A stretch of 33,446 nucleotides of DNA. Source: Fimbriimonadaceae bacterium. GTDB taxonomy: Bacteria > Armatimonadota > Fimbriimonadia > Fimbriimonadales > Fimbriimonadaceae. The stretch lies in assembly GCA_025455775.1 (NCBI GenBank), contig JALOLT010000016.1, positions 1-33,446 of the forward strand, given 5' to 3'. The position numbers were made by a program, and so were the translations under genes. Each line of letters opens with the position of its first letter. The first letter of the stretch is position 1. The notes beneath the pieces were generated by a model. It was given only the letters and a program-made list of their open reading frames with translations, was not told the DNA's origin and did no database searches. Below are positions 6,998 through 16,366 of the stretch, one piece after another.

Positions 6998-7196
6998 GGG
7001 GCTGTCTCAAAAGTGTTAGGCTTCCTAGGACGCAGTCCGTTCGCGTCTTGGTGACTTCAGTCCCCAGTCTCCATTTCAAACTCACCTGCCCTGCCGAGGC
7101 GCAGCCCCGAAGCGCAAGCGGAGGGGAGGGCGTGGCCTCGGGGAGGCGGGGCAGGCAAAATCAAAAAAACGAATTCATCACTTTTTAGACAGCCCC
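6998..7196. mobile_element. MITE-like element, 199 bp with 18-bp terminal inverted repeats
   Basis: The left end GGGGCTGTCTCAAAAGTG (6998-7015) and the reverse complement of the right end (7179-7196, GGGGCTGTCTAAAAAGTG) match at 17 of 18 positions. GGGGCTGTCT-type ends are familiar from insertion-sequence termini. The interior has no coding capacity. It holds a second, GC-rich inverted repeat (7085-7100 with 7135-7155), giving a nested hairpin. This is the layout of a non-autonomous miniature element mobilised by a transposase elsewhere. I see no convincing target duplication in the flanks. The right end lies 11 bases past the stop codon of the flotillin gene, so it sits harmlessly in the 3' flank. 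It could also act as a structured 3' end for that transcript. Confidence 0.65.
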
Positions 7197-7207: not shown

Positions 7208-8527
7208 TCACTCGCGAACGGGAGGAACCCGTACGTCGTCGGAGCCACCCCCTGGCAAACTCGTCGGGGCAGAACGCTCCGTCATTCCCTTCAAGGCAGT
7301 GACAATATCCACTCCCAGAATCTGCTTGGCTTGCTCATTCATCACATAGAGCTTTGCTGGGTCTAAGCCACCGAAGCCACCCCCATTGGAGCCACCCGTG
7401 ATCGAACTGTCCATTACCGTGTACTTCTCGATCGTCGTTTCTCCGATCGTGTTGGTGATCTGTTCGATGATTGGTTCGATCTTTTGCATCAAGAAGATCT
7501 CACGGGCCTGAGGGCCGGCACTCGCCCAGCTAGCACTCAGCTTTCTCAGGGCTTCGGCTCTGGCACGTCCTTCTTCGATAATTGGGGCGGTCGTTGCCTT
7601 CGCTTTCTGTTCAGCCGCCTCACAGGCAGCCTTCGCCGGAGCGATCACGTCTGCTTCCAGTTGCTTTCTCACTTGCTCAAGCCGCGCCCGTTGGACTGCA
7701 ACATCTGCCTTTGCCTTTGCGACGGCTTGGGCGACGGTTGCTTGCTCTTCGGCAACAACCGCAGCCCGTCGCGACAGGGCATCAGCCAAGGCTCTTTGCG
7801 CGTCAGCTTGGACAATCCTCGTCTCTGCAGCAATTCTCGCTTCAGTCTCGCGCTCAAGGTTTTCGCTCGTGCGAACCGAGGAGTCAGCCCTGGCGATTGC
7901 CTCCGCCACCCTCGCGGTGCTCACGATCTCAGCATTTCGAATTCGACCAATGGAGTCGAGATACTGAACGTCGTCGGTAATATTCTGGATCTTGAGTGTA
8001 TCAACAGAAAGGCCGAGTGCAGTCATATCCTGCTCGACTTCTGCGACGAGTCGCTCAGCGAAGAGACTTCGGTCAACGTTCAACTCTTCCGGGGTCAAGG
8101 TAGCCAAAACGCCACGAAGAGACCCCTCGAGGGTCGACTTCGCGATCCCCATGATCTCCGCACGACCCTTGCCCAAAAACCGTTCGATCGCGTTGTTCAG
8201 AATCGGTTCGTGGCCAGCTATTTTGACGTTTGCAACGCCAACGACGTTGACCGGGACTCCTCCCTTGGCATAGGCATTCATCGCCTGAAGCTCAATGATC
8301 ATGTTGGTCAGGTCGAGACTGTCCACTCGCTCGATAAAAGGCTTTCGGAAACCCATTCCACCTTTCACAACGCGATATCCATAGATTTGCCCCCCCATGC
8401 GGGCCCGTGATCCGCTAAAGATCAAAACTTGGTTGGCTTGGCAGATCTTAACGAGACTTTTGAGGCTGAGGAGCAGCAAAGCGGCAAAGGTCAGAAAAAT
8501 TCCAATTAGAACGAAAACGATACTCAC
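7208..8527 (-). CDS. Flotillin-like SPFH-domain membrane protein (second paralogue)
   Basis: This 439-residue protein has one N-terminal membrane helix (residues about 3-27). An SPFH/band-7 domain follows (about 30-215), including the typical AMNAYAKGGVPVNV..VANVKI segment and the IERFLGKGRAEI..IAKSTLEGSLRGVLATLTPEEL block. Then comes a long Ala/Glu/Arg coiled coil (about 215-345) and a short C-terminal tail with a Gly-rich patch. Flotillins oligomerise on the inner membrane and organise membrane microdomains; the YqiK/FloT type fits best. The ATG overlaps the stop of the upstream paralogue by four bases (8524-8527), so translation is coupled. Two different flotillins in tandem suggest a hetero-oligomer. 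The C-terminal Gly/Ser/Pro segment differs from that of its partner. Confidence 0.88.
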   Translation of the reverse strand: MSIVFVLIGIFLTFAALLLLSLKSLVKICQANQVLIFSGSRARMGGQIYGYRVVKGGMGFRKPFIERVDSLDLTNMIIELQAMNAYAKGGVPVNVVGVANVKIAGHEPILNNAIERFLGKGRAEIMGIAKSTLEGSLRGVLATLTPEELNVDRSLFAERLVAEVEQDMTALGLSVDTLKIQNITDDVQYLDSIGRIRNAEIVSTARVAEAIARADSSVRTSENLERETEARIAAETRIVQADAQRALADALSRRAAVVAEEQATVAQAVAKAKADVAVQRARLEQVRKQLEADVIAPAKAACEAAEQKAKATTAPIIEEGRARAEALRKLSASWASAGPQAREIFLMQKIEPIIEQITNTIGETTIEKYTVMDSSITGGSNGGGFGGLDPAKLYVMNEQAKQILGVDIVTALKGMTERSAPTSLPGGGSDDVRVPPVRE

Positions 8528-9819
8528 TTCTTCTCATCCTCCTTTCCAGAAATGACTCCTGGCACGTCAATTCCGACCGTCTTGTCAAGAGCTTCGAACA
8601 CACTGCCGAGCATCGACGGATAAGAGCGGAAATAGTTGTTGAGAGATTGGCCGTCGCCGCCATCAACAACCTGAACCGCATCGACATGGATCTTTCCAAC
8701 CCCTCGGTTTGCGGCACCCAAGATCGACTCGATGTTCTCGATCAAAACGATCTGCTTGGCATTGGGGCCAGCCTCCTGCCAGGCTTCGTAGAGAAGATCG
8801 AGGGCCAGCGCTGTGGCATTTCCTTTCTCTCGAATAACCGCTGCGTCACCTCGTGCTTGGTATTCGGAGGCAACTCTCGCTGCCTCGGCTGGCAAAACCC
8901 TTTCGACTTGAAGCCGGAGGGCCTCGAGCTCAGCGCGAACCTCTTGAAGTTCCTGTTCCGCCTTGGCTCGTGCCTCCTTAGCCGCTGCTGCCGTACGCTC
9001 TTCTTCTGCCTGAACCTTGGCGTTGAGTTCTGCCTTGATTTTCCGAAGCTCGTTGGTCATCTGAAGAACTTTTGCGTCAACCCCTGCCTTCATGACACCA
9101 CTGCGACCAGAGTTGTCTGACTCGACCATCTCCGCTTCCTTTCGGCTATCCGATTCCGCCATTTCGGCAGTTTTTAAGACGTTGGCGATTGCTTTTCGTC
9201 CCGTGGCATCCAGGTAACCCACCTCGTCACTCACGTGGAGAATCTTCAGGGTGTCTAAATGAAGCCCCAATTTGCGCAAGTCTTCTTCCGTTTCCTTACT
9301 CAAATGATCAGCAAAAACCAATCGATCTTCGTTTACCTGTTCTGGGGTGAGGTTCGCAATGACGCCGCGAAGCTGACCTTCCAAGGTTTCCTTCGCCACG
9401 CGACGCACCTCGCTCATGTCGCGATTCAAAAAACGCTCAATGGCATTGCCAATCAAGTTCCGATCACTCGAAATCTTCACGTTCGCAATGGCCTCTACAT
9501 TCATCGCGATCCCGCCTTTTGAATAAGCGTTTCGCGCAGCCACGGGAACCTCCATCGTCGTAAGGGAGATACGATCCACACGGGTAAAGAAGGGAATCGC
9601 TAGCTTCCTCCCCCCAATTACAACGTCAAATCCGCGAGCTCTCCCATCTGAAACTGAGCGAGAACGGAACCCTGTAATCACAAGGGCCTCGTTTGGTGGA
9701 CAAATTCTCAGGAAAGTCCGAACGAACCACGCGAAGAAGATCACCAGGCCAAGCCCGATGATGCCTCCGATGATGACGCTTCCGAACGTTTCACCAAAGT
9801 TCTGAATGATTTCAAACAT
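8524..9819 (-). CDS. Flotillin-like SPFH-domain membrane protein (first paralogue)
   Basis: The 431-residue protein has an N-terminal membrane segment (about residues 14-38), then the SPFH domain (about 40-215) with ARNAYSKGGIAMNVEAIANVKI and AIERFLNRDMSEVRRVAKETLEGQLRGVIANLTPEQV. A heptad-rich coiled coil with repeated Glu/Ala follows (about 220-340), and then a conserved C-terminal region ending in Lys/Glu. It aligns with the next gene over most of its length, so the two are diverged tandem duplicates. The ATG at 9819 is preceded by GAGGAAAG, a good ribosome-binding site. It lies 27 bases after the NfeD-like gene. An NfeD-like gene beside flotillin is a known bacterial pairing (compare yqiJ-yqiK in E. 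coli), which supports a shared role in membrane organisation or stress response. Confidence 0.88.
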   Translation of the reverse strand: MFEIIQNFGETFGSVIIGGIIGLGLVIFFAWFVRTFLRICPPNEALVITGFRSRSVSDGRARGFDVVIGGRKLAIPFFTRVDRISLTTMEVPVAARNAYSKGGIAMNVEAIANVKISSDRNLIGNAIERFLNRDMSEVRRVAKETLEGQLRGVIANLTPEQVNEDRLVFADHLSKETEEDLRKLGLHLDTLKILHVSDEVGYLDATGRKAIANVLKTAEMAESDSRKEAEMVESDNSGRSGVMKAGVDAKVLQMTNELRKIKAELNAKVQAEEERTAAAAKEARAKAEQELQEVRAELEALRLQVERVLPAEAARVASEYQARGDAAVIREKGNATALALDLLYEAWQEAGPNAKQIVLIENIESILGAANRGVGKIHVDAVQVVDGGDGQSLNNYFRSYPSMLGSVFEALDKTVGIDVPGVISGKEDEKK

Positions 9820-9846
9820 TTTTCTTTCCTCAACCTTACGATAACC

Positions 9847-10461
9847 TCACCGATCAAGGAGTTCGCTCGTTCTCACGACGCGCACCTTGTTTCCATCCAC
9901 TCCCACCACCACGACTTCCTCACCAGAAACGATATCTTTTCCGTCGTCGCTGACTGCAAGCATATCAATAATATCACCCCGCAGAGTCATACGGACTTTC
10001 CCTGGTTCGGTTCCACGCAACGAGACCGTTGTCTGAGCAAGGCTTCCGAGCATGTCGTCTGTGGTGGCAGCAGAGCTAATCTGGTGGGTCGTCAAGAACC
10101 TCGTTACAAAGGCAGCGACCAATCCCATTACCAATCCAGAACCGAGGGAAACAAAGAGGGTAATCGGCTCGACCGATATGCGGAACAAGGAAAGAAGCAA
10201 CCCTGTTACCCCAAAGACCCCCACAAAATAAGTCCAGAAACGCAGGCTCAGAAAGGGAAGCCAGAGATCGGAAGGGCCGCCTGAGTCGCTGTGGCCCGCA
10301 TCGTGGCTCACATCGTGGCTCACATCGTGGCTTGCGTCGTGACTGATCTCGTGGTCACTTCCGACATCAGCGTCCCCATGGCCATGCCCGCCAATCCCCA
10401 ACGCGCTGAGGAGAATCAATCCACCCCCCAAGATCGCCGTGAAAATGTAGAGTGCCTGCAT
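9847..10461 (-). CDS. NfeD/YqiJ-like membrane protein with C-terminal OB-fold and His/Asp-repeat loop
   Basis: The protein has 204 residues. A first membrane helix covers about residues 4-23. A His- and Asp-rich periplasmic or cytoplasmic loop follows (about 25-65), with repeated HDVS/HDAS units, then two more helices (about 70-93 and 98-118). The C-terminal domain of about 75 residues is rich in beta strands (MLGSLAQTTVSLRG.., GEEVVVVGVDGNKVRVVR), the pattern of the NfeD OB-fold. NfeD-type proteins work with flotillins, and this is the first gene of the three-gene leftward operon. The His/Asp loop could bind metal, but that is speculation. A TATGAT hexamer lies 11 bases before the ATG with no good -35. 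Confidence 0.82.
   Translation of the reverse strand: MQALYIFTAILGGGLILLSALGIGGHGHGDADVGSDHEISHDASHDVSHDVSHDAGHSDSGGPSDLWLPFLSLRFWTYFVGVFGVTGLLLSLFRISVEPITLFVSLGSGLVMGLVAAFVTRFLTTHQISSAATTDDMLGSLAQTTVSLRGTEPGKVRMTLRGDIIDMLAVSDDGKDIVSGEEVVVVGVDGNKVRVVRTSELLDR
10299..10346. repeat. Four 12-bp tandem repeats inside the NfeD-like gene
   Basis: Four 12-base units lie head to tail. The first two are identical (CATCGTGGCTCA on the plus strand) and the next two are diverged. On the coding strand they encode the HDVS/HDAS repeats of the His/Asp-rich loop. The unit length is a multiple of three, so copy number can change without breaking the frame. Confidence 0.8.
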
Positions 10462-11867: not shown

Positions 11868-12983
11868 TTGGCTCAAGAAGTCAGTGTCCCAGCGAAGTAC
11901 AATGGAGGGATTGTGGCGCTTGCACCCCTCATCGGGCTCACCACTGAGCAGCTCGTGACCGTCGCTCAAGAAGCGGGGGCAGAGCCCTATCGCGGCAAGC
12001 AGCTGGCCAAATGGATCTACGGGAAGGCCGCAACCACTCTCGAGGAGATGAAGGACCTCCCCAGCAATTTCCGACAAAAGCTAGCCGAAAGCTATACTCT
12101 TAGCCCCCTCTCTGTCGCTGATCATAAGAAGAGCACCGACGGGGTCGACAAGCTCCTTGTCCATCACGGCGATCAACAAGTCTATGAATGCGTTCTGCTG
12201 CCTTACACAGATCGCGTGAGCTGTTGTCTCTCCAGCCAAGTAGGGTGCCCGATGGGATGCACTTTTTGCGCAACCGGACTCGGGGGCTTCGATCGGAACC
12301 TTACGACGAGTGAAATTGTTTCGCAATACCTCCTGCTCCAAAGCCTGTCACCCCGACGAATCAGCCACGTCGTCTTTATGGGGATGGGCGAGCCACTCCT
12401 GAATCTGGCCAGCCTTGTCCCAGCGATGAAGATTTTCCACGAAGAAATTGGCCTTAGCTACCGCCATCTCACTGTCTCTACTGTTGGGCTCGTACCCCAG
12501 ATCCTCGAGTTGGCACAGCTGGAGCTCCCGATTCACCTCGCCCTCTCCCTCCATTCGCCCCACGACGAGATAAGGTCTCGACTGATGCCAGTCAATAACA
12601 AGTGGAACGTCCGCGAGACCTTTGAGGCGATGAAGGTTTATCAAAAGACAACCGGCCGAAAGATTACGATCGAATACCTGCTCATCGACCAATTGAATGA
12701 CACCCAAAATCAGGCGGAGAGTCTCGCATCTCTCGTGAAAGGAGTTCCCTGCGTCGTGAACCTCATCCCCTTCAACTACGTCGACACGAGCCAGGGTTTT
12801 CGGCGGCCGATTCGTGAAAGAGTGCGAGCTTTTCGGCAAGTCCTTGAATCAAAAGGGGTGAACGTAACGGAACGAGTGGAGAGAGGCCATGACATAGCTG
12901 CCGCCTGCGGACAACTCGCCGGACAGCACACAGGCAAATTTGCCAGGAGGGACCTATCGAACCAAATCCCTCTTCTATCGTGA
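11868..12983 (+). CDS. rlmN: Dual-specificity 23S rRNA/tRNA adenine-C2 methyltransferase RlmN (radical SAM)
   Basis: The 371-residue protein carries the radical-SAM cluster motif CPMGCTFCAT (about residues 126-135), preceded by the family's SSQVGC. It also has VVFMGMGEPLLN, STVGLVPQI, LALSLHSP and NLIPFNY, all conserved in RlmN. The cysteine needed for the methyl-transfer intermediate is in the C-terminal AACGQLAG segment. RlmN methylates A2503 of 23S rRNA and A37 of some tRNAs, using two SAM molecules. The start used is TTG at 11868; a later GTG at 11912 is possible because the first 14 residues are not typical of the family. The last bases overlap the next gene (GTGA), which makes rlmN the first gene of the lpt operon. 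Confidence 0.95.
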   Translation: MAQEVSVPAKYNGGIVALAPLIGLTTEQLVTVAQEAGAEPYRGKQLAKWIYGKAATTLEEMKDLPSNFRQKLAESYTLSPLSVADHKKSTDGVDKLLVHHGDQQVYECVLLPYTDRVSCCLSSQVGCPMGCTFCATGLGGFDRNLTTSEIVSQYLLLQSLSPRRISHVVFMGMGEPLLNLASLVPAMKIFHEEIGLSYRHLTVSTVGLVPQILELAQLELPIHLALSLHSPHDEIRSRLMPVNNKWNVRETFEAMKVYQKTTGRKITIEYLLIDQLNDTQNQAESLASLVKGVPCVVNLIPFNYVDTSQGFRRPIRERVRAFRQVLESKGVNVTERVERGHDIAAACGQLAGQHTGKFARRDLSNQIPLLS

Positions 12984-13576
12984 ATCGGCTGTGGATGATC
13001 GCCGTCATTTTCGTCGGAACCTCAATGGTCGTTGGCTGTTCACGAGAACTTCCGGCCAGAAAACCTGACCAAAGCGATAGTTCTGCCCCTCGGGATTCGA
13101 AAGAACAAGCGAAGCCACGGGATATTGCGACGGGAGGAGTGACGATTACAGCGAGAGAAGACCAGGGGCAAACAGCATGGATCGTCAAGGCAGAGTCCAG
13201 CCGAACAACCCTCACCCAAGACCAGACAAGCATAGGAACATTGCGAAAAGTAACAGCTGACCTATTTGAAGATGGCAAGATTGCGAGCCGACTCTTTGCC
13301 GATGAGGCGGTCGCGAACCAATCCACAAAGGAGCTCTTCGCCAAGGGGAATGTGAGAATTGTCGCTGACCAACTCCCCAATAGCTCGACAACCCAAAGCC
13401 CAGAACCAACCGTGCTCACGGCAAACGAAATGGAGTGGGGACAAGATAAGTCCTTCGTGAGGGCAAAGGGTGCTGTCACAGTGAAGTCAAACGTCTTTAT
13501 CTTGGGGCCCTTTCCGGAACTTTGGGCCACGCCCGATCTGACCAAATTTGGCACACCGAACCAGTTTAAGCCATGA
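12980..13576 (+). CDS. LptC-like lipoprotein of the lipopolysaccharide export system
   Basis: The protein has 198 residues, starting at a GTG that overlaps the rlmN stop. It begins with a signal sequence and a lipobox (MVVGC; Cys about residue 20), so it should be lipid-anchored in the membrane and face the periplasm. A Ser/Pro/Lys-rich linker follows. The folded part (about residues 50-190) has repeating beta segments of the OstA/LptC type (LFADEAVANQSTKELFAKGNV, LTANEMEW..). LptC links the inner-membrane LptB2FG transporter to the periplasmic LptA bridge. The assignment rests on the fold pattern and on the neighbouring lptA-, lptB- and lptF-like genes. E. coli LptC has a membrane helix instead of a lipid anchor. 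It overlaps the next gene by four bases. Confidence 0.8.
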   Translation: MNRLWMIAVIFVGTSMVVGCSRELPARKPDQSDSSAPRDSKEQAKPRDIATGGVTITAREDQGQTAWIVKAESSRTTLTQDQTSIGTLRKVTADLFEDGKIASRLFADEAVANQSTKELFAKGNVRIVADQLPNSSTTQSPEPTVLTANEMEWGQDKSFVRAKGAVTVKSNVFILGPFPELWATPDLTKFGTPNQFKP

Positions 13577-14460
13577 CCATTCGATTGATTTTCATCTGCG
13601 GCGCCTTGCTCGCCACCGGCACCCTGCTTGTCGCGCAATCGCGTCAGGCAAGCTCTTCCCCTGGTTTGCGTGACCCGAATGGTCGATGGGAAATTACCAA
13701 CATCTCTTCGCTCCTGCTTGATGCAGTAAAAAGACCCAGGATCACGTTTGAGGCCTCTGGCCAGCCCTTGCGGGGTTCAAGCCGAGCCCAAAATCTGACC
13801 TTCTCGGCCCAATCTGCCACTGGGGCTTTTGTAGAAGAAAGGGGCGGCGGACTGCGTCTGATCGAAGCTCTCTTGACAGGAAATGTCAGGATGGAAGTCA
13901 CAGGCAAGGATCGTTCCGGAGAACCAACAAGGAGTGATATCCAGACAGCAAGCGCAGAACTCAAGGCCAATGCAAACAGTGGAACAATCACTCTGCCGGA
14001 CAGTTTTACCTTTGTGAACCAAGCCACGACGCAAGGGAAAAATCGGTCTGGATCAAGAAATTTCCAAATTGAGGGGCGCGGTGGCATTTTTGAGCTCAAG
14101 GGAGAGGCTCGTGGAACCCAGGAAATCACATCGGCCACCATCCGCGGGCCTGTGAGGCTAACACTCGATTCAACAACTCTTGTTGAGGGAGCCGACGGCA
14201 GCTCTGAACGGGAGGATACAAAGATCATTGCCACGGGGAATAGTCTCACTTATACCGCTTCAACTGGAACTTTTCTCATGACTGGCAATATCAAGATTGA
14301 TGGGGATCGTCAGTCCGGCCAAGCGGGATACCTCGGAAGCCTCACCGGTGAAAGGCTGGAGATCAAAGTCGACAAGAGCTTTGATGTGATCTCCATGCGA
14401 CTGAGCGCTGGCCAAGCCACAGTAGAACAAAAACCGACAAAAGAGACGCCAAAACGATGA
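13573..14460 (+). CDS. LptA/OstA-like periplasmic lipopolysaccharide-transport protein
   Basis: This 295-residue protein has an N-terminal signal peptide (hydrophobic core LIFICGALLATGTLLVA, cleavage near residue 22). A long series of beta-strand repeats follows, with the LptA/OstA jelly-roll character: turns around Gly/Asp and alternating hydrophobics, as in LLTGNVRMEVTG and NSLTYTASTGTFLMTGNI. LptA forms the periplasmic bridge carrying lipopolysaccharide from the inner to the outer membrane. It is longer than E. coli LptA (185 residues), as if it holds two OstA-like blocks (about 55-130 and 160-270). It overlaps both neighbours by four bases, so all three proteins are made together. Function is inferred from fold pattern and operon context, as the family is poorly conserved in sequence. 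Confidence 0.82.
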   Translation: MTIRLIFICGALLATGTLLVAQSRQASSSPGLRDPNGRWEITNISSLLLDAVKRPRITFEASGQPLRGSSRAQNLTFSAQSATGAFVEERGGGLRLIEALLTGNVRMEVTGKDRSGEPTRSDIQTASAELKANANSGTITLPDSFTFVNQATTQGKNRSGSRNFQIEGRGGIFELKGEARGTQEITSATIRGPVRLTLDSTTLVEGADGSSEREDTKIIATGNSLTYTASTGTFLMTGNIKIDGDRQSGQAGYLGSLTGERLEIKVDKSFDVISMRLSAGQATVEQKPTKETPKR

Positions 14461-15254
14461 AGATTGTTGCGACAAACCTCATCAAAAAGTATCGCCGAAG
14501 AGAAGTCGTTCGCGACGTCTCGATTGAGGTCAGCCAGGGTGAAGTGGTCGGTTTGCTTGGCCCAAACGGTGCAGGTAAGACAACGACGTTCTACATGGTG
14601 ACTGGCCTGGTTCGGCCCACGCGAGGCAGGGTCTTCTTCGATGAAACAGAGGTGACGCGGTGGCCAATGTACAAGAGAGCGAGGGCCGGTGTGGGCTACC
14701 TTGCTCAAGAATCTTCTATTTTTCGTAAGCTCTCGGTCGAGGACAACATCAAGCTCGTCCTGGAGATGAACCGCGTTCCCAAAGCTATTGCGCAGCAAAG
14801 GATTGATCGTCTTGTCGAAGACCTCCATCTTCATAAGTTTATCGATAAGCCAGGGCAAGTTCTGAGCGGAGGCGAAAGGCGACGCGCCGAAATAGCTAGG
14901 GCTCTAGCAACCGAACCTAAATTTATCCTGCTAGATGAACCCTTCACTGGGATCGACCCTGTGACAATCGAAGAACTGCAAGCGATCATTCAGCGACTCA
15001 AGAGCCAAGGGATCGGAATCCTGATCACCGACCACAACGTCAGTGCAACCCTCAGCATCACAGATCGAAACTACATCCTCATTGATGGAGTCATCCAGGC
15101 ACGAGGGAGCGAGGAGGAGATTCGGTCAGACGAACACGTCAAGCGCTACTACCTGGGTCAGGGATTTGACCGATTCCGAGAGCGAACGGCAGCGAACAAC
15201 CCACCGGACGAACGAGACGCTGGCTTGAGTACAGAGGGGAAAGAGGAGTCTTAG
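14457..15254 (+). CDS. lptB: Lipopolysaccharide export ABC ATPase LptB
   Basis: The 265-residue protein has all the parts of an ABC ATPase: Walker A GPNGAGKTTTF (about residues 35-45), Q-loop YLAQESSIFRKLSV, signature LSGGERRRAEIARAL (about 138-152), Walker B FILLDEPFTGIDP and switch histidine ITDHNV. The AQESSIF..LSV and LSGGERRR forms are characteristic of LptB. Two copies of LptB power extraction of lipopolysaccharide from the inner membrane together with an LptF/LptG pair. The last 25 residues are a charged extension with no known role. The ATG overlaps the LptA-like stop by four bases, and its own TAG shares one base with the GTG of the next gene. Confidence 0.95.
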   Translation: MKIVATNLIKKYRRREVVRDVSIEVSQGEVVGLLGPNGAGKTTTFYMVTGLVRPTRGRVFFDETEVTRWPMYKRARAGVGYLAQESSIFRKLSVEDNIKLVLEMNRVPKAIAQQRIDRLVEDLHLHKFIDKPGQVLSGGERRRAEIARALATEPKFILLDEPFTGIDPVTIEELQAIIQRLKSQGIGILITDHNVSATLSITDRNYILIDGVIQARGSEEEIRSDEHVKRYYLGQGFDRFRERTAANNPPDERDAGLSTEGKEES

Positions 15255-16366
15255 TGAAGCGAATCGACCGACTCATCGTCGCTGAACTTCTTCCCTTTTG
15301 GGGATTCGGAGTCGCTATTTTCACAGTTTTGATAATGGCTGGCACCTATCTTTATACTTTCACAAGATTCTTGAGTCAGGGGGTTGGGCCACTGCTGGTC
15401 GGCGAACTCGCCATTCTTTTCCTCCCGGGCCTCATTGCCCAGACCTTTCCCATGGCGATGCTCCTCGCGACCCTTCTCGCCTTCGGGCGACTGAGTGGAG
15501 ACAGTGAGATCGTGGCGCTCCGGGCGGGAGGGGTCAGCATCACCCGCATCATGGCTCCCGTGGCGATTTTTGCAGCCCTAGTCGCAGTCACGGCTTTTGG
15601 ACTGACAGAATTTGTAGTACCTCAAGCAACAAAGCGGGCTATTTCGATGCAAGAAGATATCGAGAAGCACCTGAGCGGGGTGAGAAATCGCCGCACGACT
15701 CAGCCAATCATGGAAAACGGTCGGCTGGCTGGCTACCTCTTGGCGCGAGATTTCAACCTTTCCTCGGGGGTCTTAAGCGACTCAGTGATCGTCGGATTGA
15801 ACGATCAACTTCAGCCCACGACGGTCCTTCAAGTCCCACGCTTGAGGTTCACTGACTTGGAGAACTGGCGAATCGAAGGTTCCGCGACCCTGTACTCATT
15901 GGTCGATCACTCCACGGTTCGATTCGAGGATGGAGTTTGGCCAGCAAGCCTGCCCAAACCAAACGTCACTCCAGACCGCCTCTTCGCAGCAAGCCTCCGC
16001 CAACTCGAAGCAGCCAGCATGAGTCAAATCAGCGAGCAAATCAAGGAGCTTCGCGAAGACCCAAATCCAGACAAGGCCCAAATAGCTAACTTAGAGTTCG
16101 GATACTGGAACAAAATCACACTGCCCTTGGCTGCCCTCGTCTTTGCCCTTGTGGGGGCACCCCTAGGAATCAGAAGCCACAGGACAAACGCTGCCACAGG
16201 ATTCTGGCAATCCGTTATCATTATCTTTGGGTACATGATGTTGACAAATGCCCTCAGCATCATGTCGCAGGGTGGAGCAATTCCAAGCTGGGTGGCAAGC
16301 TTCTCCCCCATTGTGATTGGTCTCGGAGCGGCAGGCTTTTTGATCTTTAGGAAGAACGTGCAATAG
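15254..16366 (+). CDS. LptF/LptG-family permease (YjgP/YjgQ)
   Basis: The 370-residue protein starts at a GTG sharing one base with the lptB stop. Its layout is that of LptF/LptG. Three membrane helices lie in the N-terminal half (about residues 12-35, 52-80 and 95-120), with the coupling segment GRLSGDSEIVALRAGG between them (about 75-95). A periplasmic beta-jellyroll domain follows (about 130-270), and three C-terminal helices (about 275-295, 303-325 and 335-360) with LPLAALVFALVGAPLGIR. It forms the transmembrane part of the lipopolysaccharide exporter. Only one permease gene is present, so it may act as a homodimer, or a second permease may be encoded elsewhere. I cannot separate LptF from LptG. 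Confidence 0.9.
   Translation: MKRIDRLIVAELLPFWGFGVAIFTVLIMAGTYLYTFTRFLSQGVGPLLVGELAILFLPGLIAQTFPMAMLLATLLAFGRLSGDSEIVALRAGGVSITRIMAPVAIFAALVAVTAFGLTEFVVPQATKRAISMQEDIEKHLSGVRNRRTTQPIMENGRLAGYLLARDFNLSSGVLSDSVIVGLNDQLQPTTVLQVPRLRFTDLENWRIEGSATLYSLVDHSTVRFEDGVWPASLPKPNVTPDRLFAASLRQLEAASMSQISEQIKELREDPNPDKAQIANLEFGYWNKITLPLAALVFALVGAPLGIRSHRTNAATGFWQSVIIIFGYMMLTNALSIMSQGGAIPSWVASFSPIVIGLGAAGFLIFRKNVQ

Follow-up and report, generated by a model that had tools for sequence, protein, structure and literature searches.

Two flotillins encoded in tandem behind an NfeD2-like gene, here called A and B, probably build a single membrane-attached cage in which the two alternate, with the NfeD2-like protein as partner. 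Their genes lie on the minus strand of the window, by which we mean the whole 33,446-nucleotide stretch analysed (contig JALOLT010000016.1, positions 1 to 33,446 of the forward strand, from assembly GCA_025455775.1 of a Fimbriimonadaceae bacterium, 2.99 Mb in 170 contigs); its nearest named relatives are Armatimonadota, chiefly Fimbriimonadaceae metagenome bins. Bacterial flotillins are mostly treated as self-associating scaffolds. The sequences of A and B and of their relatives point to alternation instead, through a covariation of charge between the two wall helices at offsets of -8 and +8 residues; at the main clade settings, neither A nor B shows it internally. This covariation is what is new here; the tandem in cyanobacteria has already been published. 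The two proteins (lengths in amino acids, aa) and their walls are located as follows.

8524-9819, minus strand: flotillin A, 431 aa, an open reading frame encoding an N-terminal hydrophobic helix, SPFH, wall helix and C-terminal helix
8770-9216, minus strand: A wall helix, residues 202-350 (149 aa), between the alignment anchors YL and AG
7208-8527, minus strand: flotillin B, 439 aa, an open reading frame with start codon GTG
7517-7963, minus strand: B wall helix, residues 189-337 (149 aa), set by the same alignment anchors

Charge covariation between the A and B walls

In 187 distinct A/B pairs, with an effective number of 122, the walls align free of gaps. The covariation test used charges centred clade by clade, with B shuffled only among members of a clade, and an offset d compares A position i with B position i+d; ranks are quoted only for all pairs at clade cuts of 0.5 and 0.4, and small groups are described by z alone. 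At cut 0.4, d = -8 (z -8.9) and d = +8 (z -5.7) were the most negative of 281 offsets, indicating opposite charge, and at cut 0.5 they again took ranks 1 and 2 of 281 (z -10.0 and -8.6). A-B offsets of 21 to 120 reached -3.3 at most at cut 0.4. None of 2000 within-clade shuffles attained the observed value at -8 or +8, and with the strongest pairs removed (z -5.8 and -5.0) the observed values were still reached in 0/2000. A version based on mutual information gave 6.5 at -8 and 4.2 at +8, the largest value beyond offset 20 being 2.3. Among covariation groups, each named after its first six members, the Armatimonadota-like group (n = 49) has z of -5.1 at -8 and -3.2 at +8, and the cyanobacterial group (n = 58) has -2.1 and -6.8.

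That the test detects salt bridges follows from the i+3/i+4 pairs within A or within B, which stand out at z of about -9 (cut 0.4). At the same cut, A-A and B-B give no signal at offset 8 (z 0.0 to 1.0), and offset 11 within A is weakly negative (-3.3). The two A-B offsets are symmetric and therefore fit alternating tilted helices, with each A flanked by B on both sides. Covarying pairs of wall positions, counted from 0, include A147-B139 and A44-B36 at -8 and A51-B59 and A7-B15 at +8. Residues behind the -8 signal occupy one helix face at period 11/3 (R 0.93, 0/2000 draws as high) and those behind +8 another (R 0.56, p 0.018); a heptad fits neither set. The stagger to be expected from the dimensions of the Flot1/Flot2 44-mer, as available from part of PMC11260169 and with 9.5-11 Å assumed between helix axes, is 5-14 residues.

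Two proteins so alike in wall length and domain layout might instead be interchangeable, filling a mixed cage at random. Random mixing would, however, leave A-A and B-B signals at offset 8, and at the main settings there are none; we consider such a cage quite improbable. In HflK/HflC, a pair known to alternate and used here as a control (59/60 loci), covariation is most negative at -5 (z -3.4 to -4.2), and the offsets that come next include +4 and +6.

Phylogeny and wall length

In a 97-row tree, A forms one clade (40 rows, Shimodaira-Hasegawa-like approximate likelihood ratio test, SH-aLRT, 99), B forms another (40 rows, 96), and human Flot1 and Flot2 together make a third (99) among long bacterial single flotillins, so that neither A nor B pairs off with Flot1 or Flot2. 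A more careful 62-row tree supports the A clade at 99/99 and the B clade at 100/99, and three single proteins with a 149-residue wall, the fourth being omitted from this tree, fall in neither. Each clade spans Armatimonadota, Cyanobacteria, Myxococcota and a few Acidobacteriota. Because A and B are separate clades across phyla, the A/B duplication is, as these trees read, old and distinct from that of animal Flot1 and Flot2. The likeness to the animal pair drawn in the original prediction is thus one of analogy only, the human pair grouping with long single bacterial flotillins outside A and B. Lateral transfer between phyla is also suggested to have had a part in the spread of the pair, because in a few genomes of the Myxococcota-side phylum group (L062 in genome G299, L075 and L076 among them) both A and B cluster with those of Armatimonadota.

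Adjacent paralogues of one family could also be the product of a recent tandem duplication without specialisation. Yet identity between A and B is 37% (395 aligned columns), against 52-64% for the window's A and 53-66% for its B with their counterparts in the aligned relatives, and the separate A and B clades across phyla rule such an origin out; we give it next to no credence. The original prediction had named single-copy relatives as the sign of a recent duplication. Relatives of this kind do occur, but they resemble outgroups of the ancient A and B clades. They come from the phylum group of an Acidobacteriota-titled genome, where 22 of 297 genomes match: 2 with pairs, 4 with single proteins of 423-431 aa and 16 with weaker singles. 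The A and B profiles score the four single proteins alike (413/416, 373/378, 320/320 and 318/320); in pair loci the margin by which the same profiles tell A from B is wide. The four genomes yielded no second match, and one of the four proteins ends at a contig end.

The wall measures 149 residues in 235/235 complete A and 220/225 complete B, the five exceptions being 146 in four and 148 in one (genomes in two collections are counted twice, and 2 broken A and 3 cut B are omitted). The 53 long singles have ten wall lengths between 193 and 277, mostly in 11-residue steps, as if whole hendecads had been gained or lost. Among these single-flotillin walls (L141-L198), lengths of 200, 211, 222, 233, 244 and 277 occur, as do 193 and 237, and 51/53 fit these values. 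On a tree of the SPFH part only, wall length changes 0 times in A, once in B and 15 times in the singles, their branches summing to 22.3, 18.9 and 16.0, respectively. When hydrophobicity and charge of the walls were examined for a repeat, their autocorrelation showed hardly any 11-residue signal in A and a weak signal in B (hydrophobicity at lag 11, 0.09 in A and 0.24 in B). Equal wall length was considered as proof of co-assembly and rejected because the four single-copy relatives also have walls of 149 residues, so that the equality may be inherited.

Distribution and linkage of the pair

The triple of an NfeD-like gene and two flotillins that the original prediction sought in neighbouring lineages is found there repeatedly. 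Among 61 genomes searched, the window's own included, 36 have a match and 32 have A (at least 51% identity); B adjoins A in 32/32, an adjacency that exceeds chance. In 27 of 30 loci (blastp, again with the window's own), A is preceded by an NfeD-like open reading frame. A wider search of 291 Armatimonadota genomes gave 101 with a match, of which 59 belong to two families of one order and 42 to other families. Two or more matches occur in 57 of the 59, and the remaining 2 have one contig-end fragment. The 42 have one weaker match each, with open frames of 468-694 aa among the 34 listed. In the family to which the window belongs, many genomes gave no match in this search.

Among named genomes, scanned for the best 80 of 267 relatives, A and B are both present in 78 of the 80 loci; the titles are Armatimonadota, Cyanobacteria, Myxococcota, single Acidobacteriota and proteobacterial bins, and a few others. 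Cyanobacteria were searched in 292 genomes, of which 67 match: 27 have A, all 27 also have B, and the other 40 lack the pair and show a single weaker match. The two genes are unlinked in 7 of these 27, three times on the same contig hundreds of kilobases apart and four times on different contigs (no B within the stretch fetched around A). An NfeD-like open reading frame still precedes A in 5 of the 7, and none was seen beside B. A sample of one cyanobacterial order, overlapping the former, has 73/291 genomes with a match and 70 with two, and the phylum group of a Myxococcota-titled genome has 95/282 with a match and 93 with two or more. Viral contigs were scanned as well and yielded no relative.

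The spacing of the genes varies. Of 187 distinct scorable loci, 73 allow a four-base overlap and 37 a one-base overlap; B starts from -60 to +30 of the A stop in 33, and 44 have the genes farther apart. An Acaryochloris bin (L097, 3330-7584) has three consecutive SPFH genes, namely A, a second A and B, and another genome (L140, G030) with the pair encodes on a separate contig a divergent third SPFH protein of 401 aa with a wall of about 147 residues. The title of L069, given as a Methanoregulaceae archaeon, looks wrong because its match coordinates are identical to those of the Armatimonadota genome G010.

Weighing alternation

The original prediction had proposed an obligate hetero-oligomer. 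Specialisation and a hetero-oligomer are favoured by the ancient clades, by co-occurrence even when A and B are unlinked and by covariation at +8 and -8; the word obligate fares less well, in view of the genomes G1362, G292 and G1378 and of the four single proteins.

Several observations weigh against alternation, and we gather them here. In the cyanobacterial order sample, G1362, a single contig of 5.84 Mb, has A, and neither profile finds a B in it; G292 also has A and no B, with 2 kb of contig beyond A; and G1378 (L207) has B split over two frames with an unlinked, intact A. The single-copy flotillins share the 149-residue wall, and equal wall length in A and B, although consistent with co-assembly, is not diagnostic of it. 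Within the covariation itself, two small groups show -8 and no clear +8 (z -3.0 and -0.2 at n = 18; -3.6 and -1.7 at n = 14). The A-B signal shrinks with finer clades, for -8/+8 to -6.8/-3.6 at cut 0.35, -3.6/-3.0 at 0.3 and -2.1/-2.5 at 0.25; at this last cut B-B is as strong (-2.1, -2.5), and A-B values as low as -3.8 occur at other offsets; power is low there, the i+3/i+4 signal dropping from roughly -12 to a range of -3 to -5. At cut 0.4 further A-B offsets are negative (+15, -5.0; -4, -4.3; -11, -4.2; -12, -3.7; +10, -3.5), and much of the -8 signal comes from one pair, wall A147-B139 (positions counted from 0). A period of 3.6 (R 0.51) suits the +8 residues about as well as 11/3. The HflK/HflC control, finally, is modest, showing a like pattern that is weaker.

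Two further loci bear on intactness. In G1370 the contig stops just after A. In L030 and L072, one contig found in two collections, a stop interrupts flotillin A and B is intact.

Some of these points would suit separate homo-oligomers of two specialised flotillins in one membrane, as is mostly the case for Bacillus FloA and FloT, whose self-interaction is stronger than their mutual interaction according to the available part of PMC4409396. A few genomes hold A without an intact B, single relatives with a 149-residue wall exist, and in the finest clade setting B-B covaries at 8 at least as strongly as A-B. Separate homo-oligomers, however, predict covariation of A with A and of B with B at the stagger of neighbours and none of A with B, and the main settings show the opposite. 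The 53 long singles, presumed homo-oligomers (53 rows, effective number 21), do covary with themselves at 8 (z -4.0) and 9 (z -3.2), though also at 23 (-5.1) and little in finer clades, and are taken as a hint only. We therefore rate separate homo-oligomers as unlikely and retain the alternating cage.

The operon and its products

The gene order on the minus strand is NfeD2-like, A and B, and further features of the operon are these.

9847-10461, minus strand: NfeD2-like membrane protein, 204 aa, the first gene of the operon; an open reading frame with a Pfam NfeD match (E 6.4e-06) below the curated cut-off
Within 9847-10461, minus strand: His/Asp-rich loop of the NfeD2-like protein, beyond its first hydrophobic stretch
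8575-8646, minus strand: A C-terminal helix, model residues 392-415, with the conserved region NYxxxYPxMLxxVF..TTGIDIP (model and alignment)
8538-8543, minus strand: Shine-Dalgarno-like AGGAGG inside A, 10 nt before the B start, read from the sequence
8524-8527, minus strand: GTGA, the four bases in which the A stop and the B start overlap, read from the sequence
7316-7360, minus strand: short B C-terminal helix, model residues 390-404, followed by a variable, often proline-rich tail (model and alignment)

The tandem of an NfeD-like gene and two SPFH genes was thus predicted correctly, down to the overlap, whose GTGA combines the B start GTG (8527-8525) with the A stop TGA (8526-8524). Different C-termini had also been predicted and are present, A ending in a conserved helix and B in a shorter helix with a variable tail; the coiled coils, likewise said to differ, do so in sequence but not in length, both having 149 residues. 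Promoter and terminator scans gave nothing beyond the level of shuffled sequence.

Both flotillins match Pfam Band_7 above the cut-off (A, 1.3e-19; B, 3.8e-20). Two more open reading frames with a Band_7 match, of 327 and 363 aa, lie on other contigs of the genome. The NfeD domain of the upstream protein is recognisable at 26.7 bits, below the curated cut-off of 29.1. A and B are without a match to the HflK/HflC models, and their sole NCBIfam match at E 0.001 is FloT, an equivalog (NF058507) that they fall short of at 156 and 131 bits against a curated cut-off of 700. Models and alignments show in both the layout of a prokaryotic flotillin (SPFH2), with an N-terminal hydrophobic segment, a long Ala/Glu-rich wall helix and C-terminal helices. 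The AlphaFold single-chain models are of moderate confidence (mean predicted local distance difference test, pLDDT, 73 for A and 76 for B). For both, the top PDB matches are chains of the human flotillin complex, at template modelling scores (TM-scores) of 0.36-0.48 and with a large root-mean-square deviation along the long helices. Flotillin-complex chains (9bq2, 9l3g) are also best in a sequence search of the PDB, and 8z5g, a solved SPFH-NfeD complex of E. coli, is among the matches of the models.

The His/Asp-rich stretch of NfeD2 proteins (window 10276-10389), which follows the first hydrophobic segment, varies in length; one His is invariant across 23 sequences, and the stretch is possibly metal-binding. 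Beyond B, inverted repeats of 18 bases (GGGGCTGTCTCAAAAGTG / CACTTTTTAGACAGCCCC, window 6998-7196, 94% complementary with 163 bases between) end 11 bases past the stop codon and resemble a miniature inverted-repeat transposable element or an insertion-sequence remnant. Near the operon, window 12980-16366 contains LptC- and LptF/LptG-like genes of the lipopolysaccharide-export set, with matches below curated cut-offs.

A proposed cage and its relation to known systems

In the cage that we propose, each A wall helix would stand between two B helices, offset from them by some eight residues and bound through salt bridges, in a helical, right-handed barrel with an 11-residue repeat. The SPFH ends would rest on the membrane and the C-terminal helices would seal the narrow end, A and B contributing different C-terminal pieces. 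NfeD2 would be the membrane partner, presumably in contact with the cage, and translational coupling would help to hold A and B near 1:1, stoichiometry and ring size being conjectural. By analogy with other SPFH-NfeD systems, the cage may serve membrane organisation or protein quality control under stress. With less assurance than for the cage itself, the balance leans towards a fuller account: an obligately alternating cage in at least three phyla, independent of Flot1/Flot2 and HflK/HflC, that arose from a duplicated single flotillin with a 149-residue wall and whose register (an eight-residue stagger and two hendecad faces) can be read from covariation.

NfeD2 followed by two SPFH2 genes in one operon has been described in cyanobacteria and ascribed to gene duplication (Hinderhofer 2009, PMC2636767, as accessible in part), and the tandem is thus not new. 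Like the window, that locus (Syc1604_d/Syc1607_d/Syc1608_d) joins an NfeD2-type gene to two SPFH2 genes. The cyanobacterial A and B fetched here fall in the window's two clades, although the Syc proteins themselves are not among them. Relative to the available part of that account, which does not mention hetero-oligomers, the pair extends to Armatimonadota, Myxococcota and Acidobacteriota.

Two alternating SPFH assemblies serve for comparison, both as described in the available part of PMC11260169. The animal Flot1/Flot2 complex is a right-handed barrel, alternating 22+22 according to its authors, with differing C-terminal domains; like A and B, its subunits (9bq2, 9l3g) have equal wall lengths and distinct C-termini. 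The human Flot1 and Flot2 walls both measure 189 residues, however, against 149 in A and B; the duplications are separate, and the bacterial operon includes an NfeD-like gene. HflK/HflC is a bacterial SPFH hetero-cage of 12+12 alternating subunits and, like A and B, is encoded by adjacent genes (TIGR01933 and partner), although A and B do not match its models. Bacillus FloT belongs to the flotillin family, as A and B do, but has 509 aa and is mainly self-associating (PMC4409396, available in part); its gene (YuaG) adjoins that of YuaF, a weak NfeD homologue (PMC2636767, in the part available). FloA and NfeD of Staphylococcus aureus have been reported to stabilise unfolded proteins (as cited in the accessible part of PMC13086221). 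Our literature search, which subscription papers mostly lay outside, returned no proposal of a hetero-oligomer for this A/B pair and no paper containing both "flotillin" and "hendecad".

If the alternating cage is real, hetero-alternation arose more than once in the SPFH family, and the pair would offer a genetically simple bacterial system for asking what a second subunit contributes, with the single-copy 149-wall relatives as a pre-duplication comparison. As the covariation names residue pairs, the question of assembly would be directly testable by charge swap.

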